A stretch of 64,000 nucleotides of DNA, taken from the NCBI RefSeq assembly GCF_001888165.1, contig NZ_CP015455.1, positions 310,001-374,000 of the forward strand, in the 5' to 3' direction. This DNA is from Syntrophotalea acetylenica (lineage in GTDB: Bacteria > Desulfobacterota > Desulfuromonadia > Desulfuromonadales > Syntrophotaleaceae). Shown in pieces: positions 55,405 through 63,210 of the stretch. The notes beneath the pieces were generated by a model. That model saw nothing but the letters and a program-made list of their open reading frames with translations, was not told where the DNA came from and searched no databases. The translations under genes were made by a program, and so were the position numbers. Numbering within the stretch: position 1 is the first letter of the stretch; the number at the start of each line of letters is the position of its first letter.

Positions 55405-55739
55405 CAGGCCATCGGTTCTCCAATAAACCCGAAGCGATGTCGATTTTAGGCTGGATTTTATGCCTGAATTCTGCTATGTTGAGCGGATTAAAGCGGCAGT
55501 GGTCGTTTAATCGCTTCCAGCTATTGTTGCGAAGGGCCTGGCCTTGAACGGTCAGGCCCTTTATGTTTGCCTCCATGACCTGTTCAGGAGGAAACATCCA
55601 TTGGGAAAAGTGCCATCTTCCGGGGGAAAAGGGAGCGATGGCATTTCGGGCGGCCAGCAGGGTCGCCAGGTCATCGACCGTACCTTTGTTTTTTGCCCCT
55701 TGCTCCTTCCATCCGGGCTTTTTCCAGACAGGCTTGCTC
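55405..55739 (+). other. Leader region before the DEAD-box helicase gene, no gene
   Basis: About 335 bases with no supportable gene. It contains the hairpin at 55532-55561 and then 178 bases that would be helicase leader RNA. Long leaders are usual for cold-induced helicase genes, so the hairpin may be regulatory rather than only a terminator for the DUF456 gene. Confidence 0.4.
55532..55561 (+). terminator. Hairpin terminator or attenuator
   Basis: A 12-bp stem (55532-55543 with 55550-55561, one G-T pair), a TTGAAC loop and a short T-rich tail (TTTATGTTT). Confidence 0.6.
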
Positions 55740-57487
55740 ATGAGTGAAGAAATCCTTACCAGTTTTGCAGATTTATCCCTGGCTCCCGAAATCAACCGGG
55801 TCATTGCCGAGATCGGCTATGAGACGCCCTCGCCGATTCAGGCGCGCAGCATTCCGCCCCTGCTTGATGGGCGCGATCTTCTCGGACAGGCTCAGACCGG
55901 TACCGGCAAAACGGCTGCTTTTGCGCTGCCGTTGCTGAGCCGCCTCGATCTTTCGCTGAAAAGTCCCCAGATCCTGGTGTTGGCTCCGACCCGGGAGCTG
56001 GCCCTGCAGGTGGCCGAGGCCATGCAGACCTATGCCCGGCACCTGAAAGGATTTCAAGTACTCCCCGTTTATGGCGGTCAGAACATGGGACAGCAATTGC
56101 GCCAGCTGGAGCGTGGCACCCATGTGGTGGTCGGGACGCCCGGACGTATCCAGGATCACCTGCGACGCGGCACCCTGAAGCTGGACCGGCTGTCCAGTGT
56201 GGTCATCGATGAGGCCGACGAGATGCTTAAAATGGGCTTTATCGACGATGTCGAGCAGATCCTCCAGCATACCCCCGCGGATCGTCAGACGGCCCTGTTT
56301 TCCGCTACCATGCCCACCGAAGTGTTTAAAATCGCCCGTCGTCATCTGCGCAACCCCATCGAGGTGCGCATTCAGGCCAAAACCTCGACCGTCGATACCA
56401 TCAGCCAGCGATTCTGGCAGGTCAAAGGGCTGCACAAGCTCGATGCTCTGACCAGGATTCTGGAAGCGGAAGATATCGATGCCATGATCGTCTTTGTCCG
56501 CACCAAGGTCGCCACTGTGGAACTGGCCGAAAAGCTCGAAGCGCGCGGTTTTTCCAGTGCTCCCTCAACGGCGACATGACCCAGGCGTTGCGGGAAAAAA
56601 CCATCGAACGTTTTAAGGGAGGCAGTCTCGATATTGTTGTCGCCACGGATGTGGCGGCGCGCGGCCTTGACGTTCAGCGCATCAGCCACGTGGTCAACTA
56701 CGATATCCCCTACGACACCGAATCCTACGTGCATCGCATCGGCCGCACCGGCCGTGCCGGCCGCGAAGGGACCGCGATTCTCTTTGTCGCGCCGCGTGAA
56801 CGCCGCATGCTGTCGGCCATCGAGCAGGCAACACGGCAGAAAATCACTCCCATGAAGCTGCCGAGCCGGCAGGATATTACGGATCGGCGCGTCGGCCTTT
56901 TCAAGGAACAGATCCTCAACGTCATGCAATCCCAGGATCTCGATTTTTTCGAAGATTTGATCGACAATATGCAGGCAGAATACGATGCCGATGCACGCAA
57001 GATAGCCGCTTCGCTGGCGTATCTGCTGCAGAAGGATCGCCCTCTGATGCCCGAAGACGCCGGAGAGGAGTTGTGTCCGGAAGCCGGCACCATGCCCCGC
57101 GAAGCGACCTCTCGCTGGTCCGATGAGGGCTTGCAGCGCTATCGTATCGAGGTCGGACGCATTCATGGTGTGGAGCCCGGCCATATCGTTGGCGCTATTG
57201 CCAACGAAGCCGGGATCAGCAGCCGGGATATCGGACAGATAAAAATTCAGCACGATTTCAGCCTCGTCGACCTGCCCGCGAAACTGCCCGAATCTGTTTT
57301 CCGGCAGCTGCAGACGGTGTGGGTTTGCGGCCAGCAGCTGCGGCTGGTTGCCGATACGTATTCGAGAACAAAGCAGGAACGTCCACCCAAGCGCCGTTCC
57401 GTCGGTCGCTCTTTTGAAAAGCCCAAGGGCAAACCGGTGCGAAAGAATTTCTCCGGCGCTAAGCGTCAGGCAAAGAAACCCTTGTAG
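55740..57487 (+). CDS. deaD: DEAD-box RNA helicase (DeaD/CsdA type), one-base frameshift near 56563
   Basis: About 582 residues once repaired. The helicase core has the Q motif, Walker A AQTGTGKT, motif Ia [25 protein letters not shown] and [10 protein letters not shown]. The tail holds a DbpA-type RNA-binding domain ([22 protein letters not shown]) and a basic end. As given, the first frame ends soon after ARGFSSA (stop at 56577-56579) and the frame reading [12 protein letters not shown], expected to follow, is one base over. The length is one base short of a multiple of three; GCTGCC in place of GCTCC would restore it. ATG 55740 begins the family start. It would unwind structured RNA, often in the cold. 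Confidence 0.9.
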
Positions 57488-57760: not shown

Positions 57761-58407
57761 GGGCTTGCCTGTCCCTGCGGTCTTGCCTCGCGCCGTCGGT
57801 TGCAGAGGGTTGCTCAGAGAGGTCCGGCGGGCTGCGGTCTTCAGGGGCGTATTCGAAAAACCGGACTCCTGTTTGTAGAACATTGGTTGCCATGTCTGGA
57901 AGGAACCCGTTCTTTGCGGGTTTGCCGGCGCCCGATGTTTTCCCGCGATCCGTTTATGAAATCTTTCGGCCGCTTTTACATTCACGCTTTATGCGACGCA
58001 TCCACCAGGCGGAGTTTGCTTTTGGAACAGGTGTCAAAATGGATCACCCTGAAAACAATATAATGTTTCCTGGCGCTTGACATTCGTCAGCGACGTTGCT
58101 GGTTCGACTTTTTGAAATCATAAAGCATTCTTCAAATTATCAATGGTTTAGACGGCGTATACTGGTCTGCAGGCACTGTCCGGAAAATTTTTTTATTCAC
58201 GAAAAAACGTCTGGTACAGGGGCTTTTCAAAGTAATACATCTGTCTCACTTCGACTTATCCGTCTCAAAAGTATCTCTCCTGTCGCCTTGCTTTCAGCCC
58301 CCCCACCGCCTGCCGCCGGTGTATCCGATTTTTCGAATATTTATGTAATTGCAGGTAAAACAACAGTTTGAAAACATCGTTTACGAAAATTTTTCATAGA
58401 GGATGAT

Positions 58408-58424
58408 TTGGTACAACCATTGCG
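58408..58424 (+). promoter_or_regulatory. Sigma-54 (RpoN) promoter candidate
   Basis: TTGGTAC, then AACCA, then TTGCG: GG (58410-58411) and GC (58422-58423) are exactly 10 bases apart, as in the -24/-12 consensus TGGCAC-N5-TTGC. The start would be near 58435. It would drive the butanediol cluster with a leader of about 130 bases to the small ORF and 300 to the membrane protein. Sigma-54 control of acetoin/butanediol genes by an AcoR-type activator is known in other bacteria. No such activator gene is in the window. Confidence 0.65.
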
Positions 58425-58563
58425 GAACAGGTTGCACAGTAAAGCTGTTTTACAAACGTGTTTCAGTCAGGGTGCATTCGGCATGCACCGTGACGGCGGT
58501 AAGGTCTGACCGGTTGGCCAGAAGTTGATTTTCCCGTTCGGGTGTATTCCACGAAAGGAGGCT

Positions 58564-58683
58564 ATGGGGGGTGTCTCGGATTATGACTGTATGGAGGAGG
58601 TTTATGCGGTTGGAGAAAACAAGGGACAGTTCATTATTGGAATGTGTGTTCTGATTCGCGCAAGTCTGGAGCCTGGCGGTTGA
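58564..58683 (+). CDS. Small ORF, 39 residues, unknown
   Basis: ATG 58564 is preceded by AAAGGAGG at ideal spacing, one of the best ribosome binding sites in the window. It encodes a 39-residue acidic peptide (MGGVSDYDCMEEVYAVGE at the start) ending in a hydrophobic patch (FIIGMCVLI) and PGG. A perfect hairpin overlaps its stop codon. It lies between the sigma-54 promoter and the membrane protein. It may be a real small protein or a translated leader controlling the next gene; I recognise no family. Confidence 0.5.
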   Translation: MGGVSDYDCMEEVYAVGENKGQFIIGMCVLIRASLEPGG

Positions 58684-58699
58684 GCGTTCTGACGCTCAA
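58680..58699 (+). promoter_or_regulatory. Leader hairpin over the small ORF stop codon
   Basis: TTGAGCGT (58680-58687) pairs perfectly with ACGCTCAA (58692-58699) around a TCTG loop. The stop codon of the small ORF (58681-58683) lies in the left arm, so a ribosome finishing the small ORF would open the hairpin. No T run follows. Confidence 0.5.
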
Positions 58700-58735
58700 T
58701 CACTCGTGTAAACGTCTAGCAAAAGGAAGCTTTAC

Positions 58736-59722
58736 ATGGAACCTTATAGTCTTAATACCCTTTTGATAGTTTTTGGTGGCGGCATTATCGGTACGGCACT
58801 GGGTGGCCTCTGGGCGATCATCCTTTGCGCCCTTTTCGGGCTGATCGGTTGTGGCATTCTGCTTTCGGGCGGATCCGATTTCGTGCTGGCGCAGATCGCA
58901 TTCGGCCCCATTTTCGGCCCGCACACCGGTGGCTTCGGCGCGGCACTGATGGCCGGTTGCTACGCTGTGATGAAAAAGAATCACCCCGGTGGTTCCGCCA
59001 AGGATATCCTGAGTCCGTTGCTGCATACCTCAGGCGACGTGCTGCTGATGGGTGGCGCTCTCTCGGTTGTTGCCCATCTGGTTCTGCAGGTGGTGGTCAA
59101 GATCCCCATTGTCAATCAGTCCGACGGCGTCGCCGTGACCCTGGTGCTCATGACGTTCCTGACCCGTGCGATATTCCTCAAGGAAGGTCCCCTGGGGCAG
59201 GCTTCCTCGATCAAGGAGCATGGCCTTTTCGGCACCAACAATTACGCGATTTCCTGGGCTGGCTGGCAGTCTCCCATGAGTAAAAACATTCCCATGTCTT
59301 TCGGGATGGGGCTGCTGTCGGCAGGTCTTGCCTGGGGCTTCAAGATGCAGCTCGACCCCCTCGTCGAAGCCGGGACGGTCTCGGGTCTGGGCGGATTCCT
59401 CGCACCGCTGGTCATCGGCTGGATACTCTGTATCCTGATTCTCCTGCCGCTGCAGGTATCGACTGGCACGATCCAGCAGGTGCCGATCATGCACTGCATG
59501 GCGATCATCGGCGCCTGGGCGTTCATGCACACCGGCTCCATTTTGCTGGGCGGCATCGTTGCCGTGATTGCCGGCATGGTGCAGGAAGCCTGCGCACGTC
59601 TGTTCTACAACCATGGCAGCTCGCATATCGACCCGCCTGCCGTGGGGATTATGATCTGTACCCTGCTCATCAATCTGGCGATGAAGCCGGAATTCCTGAA
59701 TCTGGCAGCCCTGTTCAAATAG
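58736..59722 (+). CDS. Polytopic membrane protein of unknown function
   Basis: 328 residues with roughly eight to nine membrane segments rich in glycine, among them LLIVFGGGIIGTALGGLWAI, the MGGALSVVAHLVLQVVVKI segment, and the LLGGIVAVIAGMV segment near the C-terminus. No nucleotide-binding or known transporter signature is seen. AAGGAAG precedes ATG 58736. As the first full gene of the butanediol cluster it might be a permease for butanediol, acetoin or a related alcohol, but that is inference. Its last codons and stop are copied in the tandem repeat that follows. Confidence 0.75.
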   Translation: MEPYSLNTLLIVFGGGIIGTALGGLWAIILCALFGLIGCGILLSGGSDFVLAQIAFGPIFGPHTGGFGAALMAGCYAVMKKNHPGGSAKDILSPLLHTSGDVLLMGGALSVVAHLVLQVVVKIPIVNQSDGVAVTLVLMTFLTRAIFLKEGPLGQASSIKEHGLFGTNNYAISWAGWQSPMSKNIPMSFGMGLLSAGLAWGFKMQLDPLVEAGTVSGLGGFLAPLVIGWILCILILLPLQVSTGTIQQVPIMHCMAIIGAWAFMHTGSILLGGIVAVIAGMVQEACARLFYNHGSSHIDPPAVGIMICTLLINLAMKPEFLNLAALFK

Positions 59723-59821
59723 GGGATTTCTACTAAACAAAGCGCCTAGGCGCTACTTCTGAATCTGGCAGCCCTGTTCAAATAGGGGATTTCTACTAAA
59801 CAAAGCGCCTAGGCGCTACTT
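59696..59821. repeat. Perfect 63-bp tandem duplication with palindrome
   Basis: Bases 59696-59758 and 59759-59821 are identical. The first copy holds the last nine codons, including the stop, of the membrane protein gene; the second repeats them after the stop. Each copy contains the perfect 14-base palindrome AGCGCCTAGGCGCT (59741-59754 and 59804-59817). Confidence 0.95.
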
Positions 59822-59842: not shown

Positions 59843-60910
59843 ATGGCTCAAACGATGAAAGCAGCCGTATGGCACGCCAAAAAAGACATCCGCGTAGAAG
59901 AAGTTCCCGTGCCTGCAGCCCCCGGGCCCGATGAAGTACAGGTTGAGGTAGCGGTTTGTGGCATCTGCGGTTCCGACCTCCACGAATATCTGGCCGGTCC
60001 GATCTTCATTCCTACCGCACCTCATCCTCTGACCGGCCACTTTGGCAAGACCATCCTTGGTCACGAGTTTTCCGGCAAAGTCGTTGCCGTCGGCTCCAAT
60101 GTCACCAACGTGCGGGTCGGCGATCTGGTCGCTCCCGACGCCTGCCAGCATTGCGGTACCTGCGTTACTTGCCGTGAAGGCCGCTACAACGTTTGTGAAA
60201 AGCTGGCCTTTACCGGTCTGATGGCCGATGGCGCGTTCGCCAAGTATGTCAACATTCCTGCCAACATCTGCTACGTCGTACCTCCCGGCACCGACCTGGA
60301 CGCCGCGGCCCTGATCGAGCCGATCGCCACCGGTTTCAAAGCCGTGCGCCTGGCTGGCTCCATTCTCGGTAAAACCGCTGTAATCCTCGGGTCCGGCACC
60401 ATCGGCCTCGGTACCCTGCAGTGCGCCAAGGCTGCCGGCGCCGGTCAGGTCATCGTGATCGAGATGTCTGCTGCCCGTAAGGAGCTGGCCAAGAAGTGCG
60501 GCGCCGACGTGGTTCTCGATCCCAGAGAGTGCGACGTGGTTGCCGAAGTCAAGAAACTGACCAACGGTTCCGGTGCCGACGTCTCCTTCGAGTGTATCGG
60601 CAACGTCAAGACCGGTCCTCTTGCCATCGATCTCATTCGCAACAACGGTACTGCGATGATCGTCGGTATCTTCGAGGGCCCGAGCGAATTCAACTTCTTC
60701 AGCCTCAGCGCCACCGACAAGAGGGTCATCGGTACCCTGGCCTACACCGTGGACGATTTCCAGGGTGTCTGTGCTTTGCTGAACAACGGCGCGATTAGTG
60801 CCGAGCCGATGATCACTGGTAAAATCGAGCTGGACGATATCGTTGAAAAGGGTTTCGAAGAGTTGGTCAACAACAAGGATGCCCATATCAAGATCCTTGT
60901 GAAGCCCTGA
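59843..60910 (+). CDS. bdhA: (R,R)-2,3-butanediol dehydrogenase-like zinc alcohol dehydrogenase
   Basis: 355 residues of the MDR family. Catalytic zinc ligands lie in CGICGSDLHE and GHEFSGKV, and the structural zinc cysteines are CQHCGTCVTCREGRYNVC. The NAD-binding site is ILGSGTIGLGTLQ. The sequence pattern (AGPIFIPTAPHPLTG) is typical of (R,R)-butanediol dehydrogenase, which interconverts 2,3-butanediol and acetoin with NAD. GGAAAGGATC lies before ATG 59843. A paired hairpin follows its stop. With the acetoin reductase at 62401 it forms a stereochemically complementary pair. Confidence 0.88.
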   Translation: MAQTMKAAVWHAKKDIRVEEVPVPAAPGPDEVQVEVAVCGICGSDLHEYLAGPIFIPTAPHPLTGHFGKTILGHEFSGKVVAVGSNVTNVRVGDLVAPDACQHCGTCVTCREGRYNVCEKLAFTGLMADGAFAKYVNIPANICYVVPPGTDLDAAALIEPIATGFKAVRLAGSILGKTAVILGSGTIGLGTLQCAKAAGAGQVIVIEMSAARKELAKKCGADVVLDPRECDVVAEVKKLTNGSGADVSFECIGNVKTGPLAIDLIRNNGTAMIVGIFEGPSEFNFFSLSATDKRVIGTLAYTVDDFQGVCALLNNGAISAEPMITGKIELDDIVEKGFEELVNNKDAHIKILVKP

Positions 60911-62400: not shown

Positions 62401-63210
62401 ATGAGCGAAAAGAAACTTGCAGGTAAGGTTGCAATTGTAACGGGATCGGGCCGTGGCATCGGCAGGGCCATCGCCATGCGGCTGGCGGCCGATGGGGCTG
62501 CCGTGGTGGTAAGCGATGTCATGGCGGACAACATGAACAAGGTTGCGGCCGAGATTGAAGCTGCCGGCGGCAAATCACTGGCGGTTGCCTGCGATGTAAC
62601 CAATGAGCAGCAAGTCAATGCCCTGGTGGAAAAGGCTGTAGCAAAATTCGGCAAGCTGGACATCATGGTGGCCAACGCCGGCATCGGCATCGTCAAGGTC
62701 GGTCTTGACCATACCCCCGAGGATATCGACAAGCAGCTTGCCGTCAACGTGAAGGGCGTCATTCTTTGTGACAACGCAGCCGCCCGGCAGATGATCAAGC
62801 AGGGCCATAAAGGCTATCTGGGCAGCGGCGGCAAAATCATCAACTGCGCCAGCATCGCCGGTCACGCCGGTTTTGCCTTTCTGCCTGTCTACAGTGCTTC
62901 CAAGTTCGCCGTCCGGGGCTACACGCAAGCTTTTGCCAAGGAAATGGCGGAAAACAAAATTACGGTCAATGCCTACTGCCCCGGCATCGTCGGTACCGAT
63001 ATGTGGGATCTTATCGATGAAAAAATCGGGGCCTACACCGGTGCGGCCAAAGGTGAAACCCTCAAGGCCTATGTTGACAGCGCCATCCTTGCAAAAGAAG
63101 TCGGAAAACCGGAGCAGGTTGCCGGTTACGTATCCTTTGTCGCTTCCGATGATGGCGATTACATGACCGGCCAGTCGGTCATGATCGATGGCGGGATTAT
63201 CCTGGTATAG
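62401..63210 (+). CDS. budC: Acetoin reductase / (S,S)- or meso-butanediol dehydrogenase (SDR)
   Basis: 269 residues, a classical short-chain dehydrogenase. The cofactor motif is TGSGRGIGRA (residues about 15-24), the structural motif is NAGIG, the catalytic serine is in NCASIAG and the YSASKFA motif bears the tyrosine and lysine. The PGIVGTDMW segment and the GYLGSGGK insert resemble BudC/ButA diacetyl/acetoin reductases. It interconverts acetoin and butanediol with NAD. AAAAAGGAGC precedes ATG 62401. Confidence 0.85.
   Translation: MSEKKLAGKVAIVTGSGRGIGRAIAMRLAADGAAVVVSDVMADNMNKVAAEIEAAGGKSLAVACDVTNEQQVNALVEKAVAKFGKLDIMVANAGIGIVKVGLDHTPEDIDKQLAVNVKGVILCDNAAARQMIKQGHKGYLGSGGKIINCASIAGHAGFAFLPVYSASKFAVRGYTQAFAKEMAENKITVNAYCPGIVGTDMWDLIDEKIGAYTGAAKGETLKAYVDSAILAKEVGKPEQVAGYVSFVASDDGDYMTGQSVMIDGGIILV

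Follow-up and report, generated by a model that had tools for sequence, protein, structure and literature searches.

Features of the predicted leader and its promoter

We analyzed a 64,000-nt stretch of the Syntrophotalea acetylenica genome (hereafter the window; contig NZ_CP015455.1, positions 310,001 to 374,000 of the forward strand), focusing on the region between a sigma-54-type promoter and a multi-spanning membrane protein gene. In a preliminary description, a 39-codon open reading frame (ORF) in this region was proposed to be either a new small protein or a translated leader that gates downstream expression. Judged from its sequence, the region is a leader that heads the acetoin/2,3-butanediol gene cluster in a bacterium of the Pelobacter (Syntrophotalea) type. 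We regard it as most probably a conserved regulatory leader rather than a gene for a new small protein, because most relatives drop the start and stop of the ORF yet keep the ribosome-binding sequence and the hairpin. The features of the region are as follows.

58355-58371, + strand: element GTAAAACAACAGTTTGA / AAAACAACAGTTT; pattern RWAAAACAACAGTTTRA has exactly one match per genome in 5/5 leader-bearing genomes, always at this operon
58409-58423, + strand: sigma-54-type promoter TGGTACAACCATTGC; pattern TGGTACAWCCATTG has a single match per genome in 5/5 leader-bearing genomes, always at this operon
58434-58735, + strand: conserved 5′ leader, its putative start placed from the promoter
58550-58561, + strand: upstream Shine-Dalgarno (SD)-like stretch CACGAAAGGAGG, invariant in four leaders; the P. 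carbinolicus-type leader retains AAGGAGG
58564-58683, + strand: 39-codon ORF (ATG at 58564, TGA at 58681-58683), not kept as a unit across lineages
58604-58654, + strand: overlapping 16-codon micro-ORF in another frame (GGAGGAGG-TTT-ATG), whose length also varies between lineages
58676-58703, + strand: hairpin spanning the ORF stop codon, with a perfect 8-bp core at 58680-58699, extendable to 12 pairs with one mismatch
58721-58738, + strand: ribosome site and start of the membrane gene, AAAAGGAAGCTTTACATG, invariant in four leaders and present also in the fifth
58736-59722, + strand: gene of a multi-spanning membrane protein, positional orthologue of Pcar_0329
59843-60910, + strand: budX-type 2,3-butanediol dehydrogenase (zinc MDR) gene with Pfam ADH_N and ADH_zinc_N, in the budX position of the P. 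carbinolicus acetoin cluster

The sigma-54-type element lies ~140 nt 5′ of the ATG at 58564 and would place the transcript start at 58434, 130 nt from the ORF; the preliminary description gave ~130 bases from the promoter to the ORF. The −12 box reads TTGA, not TTGC, in two of the five leader-bearing genomes. The AAAACAACAGTTT element upstream of the promoter is a candidate activator, bending-protein or IHF-type site.

The ORF is present with its ribosome sequence (AAAGGAGG at 58554-58561), and it ends, as had been described, within a perfect hairpin, the stem of which (TTGAGCGT-TCTG-ACGCTCAA, 58680-58699) spans the stop codon. The spacing had been called ideal, a view that our measurements do not bear out. 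Specifically, GGAGG ends only 2 nt from the ATG (3 nt for AGGAG), versus 5-8 nt at long ORFs with an ATG start. The latter values come from a crude scan, made with our own script, of 40 long ORFs of the window, 12 of which have a GGAGG or AGGAG core; six of these start with ATG and show the 5-8 nt spacing, and the six with GTG or TTG starts, which are probably miscalled, show spacings of 1-17 nt. The pattern AGGAGGNNNTGGGG has one match in the window versus 0.04 expected. The length of the ORF is unremarkable, because a fraction of 0.153 of 5000 dinucleotide shuffles give an equally open frame of 38 further codons after the start.

Distribution of the leader

Leader DNA was found in 5 of the 136 genomes of the order, and the leader RNA model R1, used with stricter filters, matches in 5 of the 277 genomes of the class. 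The leader-bearing genomes are those of the window, of a P. carbinolicus-type organism (G004, taken as P. carbinolicus from its cluster gene order), of Pelobacter UBA6812, of Pelobacter UBA5610, and of Desulfuromonas CSMB_57 (G006), with a leader DNA identity of 72-73% in related organisms. The P. carbinolicus-type genome is one contig and CSMB_57 is a draft; assembly errors are possible in UBA5610, because its membrane gene matches in two pieces. At 14 non-orthologous loci of other copies of the membrane protein, the upstream sequences, read by eye, contain no similar leader.

One further locus, L024, has the membrane gene with a different upstream sequence (by eye) and was excluded from all leader counts. 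Record L027, nearly identical to the CSMB_57 record L026 (one G fewer in the G run), was excluded from lineage counts and from alignments A2, A3, A4 and A6, and was kept in A1 and A5. The P. carbinolicus-type leader (L002) is in alignments A1, A2, A4 and A6 and outside A3 and A5; the periodicity, the coding test and the counts of invariant runs therefore cover four lineages.

Conservation of the Shine-Dalgarno stretch and the hairpin

Across the four leaders, only three invariant runs reach at least 7 bases: TTGGTACA in the promoter −24 box, the upstream SD stretch CACGAAAGGAGG, and AAAAGGAAGCTTTACATG, the ribosome site and ATG of the membrane gene. Mean pairwise identity in the same leaders is 0.94 for the SD block; it is 0.65 ahead of that block, 0.60 over the ORF's first half, and 0.86 beyond the hairpin.

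The hairpin is recognizable in all five lineages, where 89.8% of 59 cells are paired and two pairs have a change on each side. The paired share is far above the 33.9-46.3% of slid controls, though a structure read from one sequence tends that way. A perfect stem of at least 8 bp with a loop of 3-8 occurs in 11 of 1000 leader shuffles. The fold z of the hairpin segment, calculated on single sequences, is −1.89 in the window, −4.01 in UBA6812, −0.30 in CSMB_57, 0.31 in UBA5610 and −1.59 in the P. carbinolicus-type leader. The hairpin is not an intrinsic terminator, because it has no U tract, and it is absent from the list of terminator-like sites. Both the hairpin count and the coding test described below were made with our own scripts and simple nulls.

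In the folding model, no single sequestering structure and no pairing partner of the SD stretch is common to the five leader ensembles. Two candidate pairings were rejected. The AGCCT stretch near the hairpin, considered as a sequestering partner of the upstream SD, has a mean of 0.48 in the window ensemble and 0.0 in the other four, and a CACGAA/TTCGTG pairing within the ORF is, by eye, perfect in three leaders and imperfect in those of the window and the P. carbinolicus-type genome. In addition, GTAAAG at the transcript 5′ end and CTTTAC at the membrane gene ribosome site are paired in one consensus fold and are not the favored partners in single-sequence ensembles. A known RNA family was ruled out, with no match among 4227 Rfam models at E ≤ 10 over 58200-58900.

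The 39-codon frame is not kept as a unit

The start after the SD stretch and the stop are both kept in two of the five lineages. Specifically, the UBA6812 frame starts with TTG, ends at the same stop, and contains indels by which the frame is restored; in UBA5610 the frame is open, but it lacks both a start codon directly after the SD stretch and a stop at the hairpin. In CSMB_57, a stop interrupts the frame ahead of a short peptide core, IGMC[VIL]LIRA, and the hairpin carries no in-frame stop. Between the SD stretch and the core, the P. carbinolicus-type leader has ~100 nt of extra sequence, and its core is interrupted. The core is recognizable in four of the five lineages and carries at most a hint of weak or former coding.

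Changes at codon positions 1, 2 and 3 number 15, 12 and 17 over 58606-58680, with no periodicity; the last 48 bases alone give 8, 3 and 8. The coding test in the ORF frame yields P = 0.111, 0.017, 0.008, 0.235, 0.368 and 0.009 for the six pairs, and 2 of the 12 results in the other two frames fall below 0.01. The null of this test spreads changes evenly, and frame signals are therefore possibly overstated where conservation clusters. As a control, the test was applied to tiles of the membrane gene bearing 16-33 changes, and P was ≤ 0.00125 in 26 of 26.

A search with the peptide gave matches in 16 of 134 genomes at E ≤ 1, of which three are below 1e-6, all in leader-bearing genomes; the next-best match, CSMB_57 (E 0.022), is leader-bearing too and has a stop inside. 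The same search gave no match in the P. carbinolicus-type genome. The peptide has no Pfam match, and its one NCBIfam match is far under the cut-off (13.9 versus 224.8 bits). A longer ancestral protein reading through the SD stretch was considered and rejected: three lineages have frames that stay open upstream, with total lengths of 57, 86 and 89 codons, and the upstream parts of these frames disagree.

Start and stop are kept together in few lineages, the P. carbinolicus-type and CSMB_57 leaders have broken frames, and there is no codon periodicity; the proposal of a new small protein is therefore not upheld as it stands. The preliminary description had named joint lack of conservation of peptide and hairpin as evidence against its reading; we find that the peptide is not conserved as a unit and that the hairpin is conserved. 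Its other proposal, a leader that affects downstream expression, stands in outline, with the SD stretch and the hairpin conserved and the codons less so, while its translated, gating part is retained as a rival explanation. The 39-codon frame itself is probably mostly a by-product of low stop-codon density 3′ of the SD site.

A proposed mechanism and its alternatives

Our tentative reading, in which our confidence falls somewhat short of even, is of a conserved 5′ leader RNA, restricted to certain lineages and with a sigma-54-type promoter, in which the SD stretch and the hairpin matter, through docking of the 30S subunit, mRNA stability or spacing, and the peptide matters little or not at all. 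Transcription would proceed from the sigma-54-type promoter, the sequence of which is in place, potentially activated by the AcoR-type regulator of the cluster. The upstream SD stretch CACGAAAGGAGG could then dock a 30S subunit or a ribosome with little or no selected peptide being made. The hairpin, located ~115 nt 3′ of the SD stretch and just 5′ of the ribosome site of the membrane gene, may together with the SD stretch shield the long operon mRNA from 5′ decay, and it may also isolate the ribosome site of the membrane gene, keeping the real site free. The likely effect would be on mRNA stability or initiation.

Several observations weigh against this reading. The leader is represented by five lineages in all, two of which (UBA6812 and UBA5610) are metagenome assemblies. 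The SD stretch lies ~120 nt inside the predicted transcript, away from its 5′ end, and in the folding model it is mostly paired in the window and in UBA5610 (mean probability of being unpaired 0.19 and 0.20, respectively). The fold of the whole leader is not significant (z −1.43; 8 of 100 shuffles are equally stable or more), and the shuffle control of the hairpin is weak, with the observed value reached in 15 of 500 shuffles for paired cells, in 76 for double changes, in 177 for pair types and in 43 for covariation score. Conservation of the ORF is higher in its second half than in its first (identity 0.79, with 33 of 51 positions invariant in the four leaders), P is below 0.02 in three of the six pairs in the ORF frame, an in-frame ATG at codon 10 is common to the window, UBA6812 and UBA5610, and an ATG or TTG lies 2-4 nt past the SD stretch in all five leaders, so that initiation may occur there. 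Two further points, on the RNase J-type protein and on the gene order in P. carbinolicus, are given below with the systems they concern.

The ATG or TTG after the SD stretch in all five leaders is what makes a translated leader without a selected peptide the main rival. Here ribosomes would start at 58564 (or 58604) and, on reaching the hairpin, melt it or stop; their transit would thereby be coupled to the downstream ribosome site and gate the membrane gene, with the peptide largely irrelevant. The position of the hairpin on the stop codon in the window and UBA6812, as well as the weak coding signal in the ORF frame, is consistent with this. We nevertheless regard it as rather unlikely, given that the 2-nt spacing found in four of the five leaders is short, that the ORF runs for 39 codons in the window, 39 in UBA6812, 6 in UBA5610 and 2 in the P. 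carbinolicus-type leader and past the membrane gene ATG in CSMB_57, and that the hairpin is not terminator-like and no partner of the SD stretch is common to all five leaders. The ORF might instead encode a real small protein (MGGVSDYDCMEEVYAVGENKGQFIIGMCVLIRASLEPGG, or a shorter form from the codon-10 ATG) that decayed in some relatives, which would account for the recognizable core, the low P values and the frame-restoring indels of UBA6812. This explanation appears quite improbable in view of the broken frames and the rarity of a jointly kept start and stop; furthermore, no SD-like sequence stands just 5′ of the codon-10 ATG in the window, the tiles of the membrane gene give a far clearer coding signal, and the family searches with the peptide returned nothing above cut-off.

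A CsrA-type site is a more doubtful explanation, in which GGA motifs of the leader, including those of both ribosome sites, would bind CsrA and thereby repress or stabilize the operon mRNA. GGA occurs in the upstream SD stretch and in AAAAGGAAG of the membrane gene in five of five leaders, and in a second purine stretch in three of five (window, UBA6812 and P. carbinolicus-type); the GGAG of this second stretch is in a hairpin loop in both consensus folds, the GAGG of the first is in the loop of a 4-bp hairpin in one consensus fold, and the genome has a csrA gene (84 bits). However, GGA belongs to any ribosome site, the second-stretch GGA is missing in CSMB_57 and UBA5610, and both GGA-loop hairpins are without a pair changed on both sides. 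The least probable account, in our estimate, is an ordinary leader in which nothing but the promoter and the ribosome site of the membrane gene has a role, its conservation reflecting common descent. The overall DNA identity among relatives, the modest identity before the SD stretch, the unexceptional fold of the whole leader and the weak shuffle control of the hairpin are all in accordance with it, but the 0.94 identity of CACGAAAGGAGG over that background, and the excess of hairpin pairing over slid controls, with the qualification given above, argue against it.

Relation to known systems

Translated-leader or upstream-ORF attenuators of the trp and erm type resemble the leader in having an SD sequence, a short frame and a hairpin between the promoter and the first gene. 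The leader differs from them in that its peptide and stop are not kept as a unit, its hairpin is not terminator-like, and there is no shared alternative pairing.

The precedent for our preferred reading, of an SD stretch and hairpin acting with little or no selected peptide, is the STAB-SD of the Bacillus thuringiensis cry3A mRNA, which reportedly has letters of the GAAAGGAGG type, as the window likewise does. As reported, a STAB-SD resembles an SD sequence but is not used to initiate translation; it blocks RNase J1 and stabilizes the mRNA at its 5′ end (PMC4113751). The genome of the window has a TIGR00649 protein (551 bits, over the cut-off) and two RNase E/G-family genes. TIGR00649, which we take to be the RNase J family, is not specific evidence, because it is matched in 13 of 14 control genomes, in 9 of them over the cut-off, which is one of the points against our reading. 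The two systems also differ: a STAB-SD is near the 5′ end of the major transcript, unlike the SD stretch of the window, which is internal to the predicted transcript, and here an ATG or TTG follows close behind the SD stretch, the promoter is of the sigma-54 type and the host is not Gram-positive. We consider it unlikely that, in this sigma-54-controlled catabolic operon, the leader provides a STAB-SD-like upstream SD, used for 30S docking and not for protein making, that works jointly with the hairpin. We know of no STAB-SD-like element in this bacterial group.

If the upstream site does dock 30S subunits and thereby protects the long mRNA of a catabolic operon, the reach of the STAB-SD concept would widen from Gram-positives to the acetoin/2,3-butanediol operon of Pelobacter-type organisms; if it does not, the leader still serves as a warning when ORFs of this sort are to be annotated as small proteins. 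The leader separates two cases that resemble each other in raw sequence, an ORF with a good ribosome site and a conserved ribosome site without a conserved ORF. We found no description of this leader in the literature searched, the scope of which excluded supplements and most subscription papers.

The operon and neighboring genes

The gene run behind the leader comprises the membrane protein, the zinc-dependent dehydrogenase, a small gene, a DUF6506 gene, a glyoxalase-family gene, an SDR gene and an ABM gene. Further downstream, the cluster encodes a protein that combines a sigma-54 activation domain with a Fis-type helix-turn-helix, and other ORFs there are read, from their translations alone, as thiamin genes, an acoX-like gene and acetoin dehydrogenase subunits. 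The P. carbinolicus acetoin dehydrogenase cluster has the same kind of gene order, with the membrane protein Pcar_0329, budX (Pcar_0330), the epimerase-family gene Pcar_0333, acoR1 (Pcar_0336), thiamin genes, acoX and acoABCSL, as given in the passages of the source on the cluster (PMC3543383). The P. carbinolicus-type leader differs from that of the window by its extra sequence between the SD stretch and the core and by its interrupted frame. In the same source, budX is the third gene of the cluster and Pcar_0329 is the gene before it; one annotated gene therefore precedes Pcar_0329 there, which is the other point against our reading. The main text of that source is without the word "leader", and the passages that we consulted do not describe the leader.

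The membrane protein (58736-59722) has no Pfam match to E 1 and no NCBIfam match to E 0.1. A search for relatives matched 10 of 98 genomes, its own among them, with at most five matches per genome, some of them fragments. A second copy in the same genome, L020 (G000:C1:586292-587274), is split across two reading frames.

An exact 63-bp tandem duplication, with two identical copies, extends over 59696-59821, from the end of the membrane gene into the gap before budX. The unit is single-copy, judged by BLAST extent, at the P. carbinolicus-type, UBA6812, UBA5610 and L024 loci. A full-length SDR gene at 62401-63210 follows the epimerase-family gene in the window, and likewise in CSMB_57; the comparison also took in L035:9443-9574. 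Upstream of the leader, at 55563-57487, a DEAD-box-type RNA helicase, as read from its translation, occupies two frames of 338 and 303 aa and corresponds to one 639-aa frame in the P. carbinolicus-type genome.
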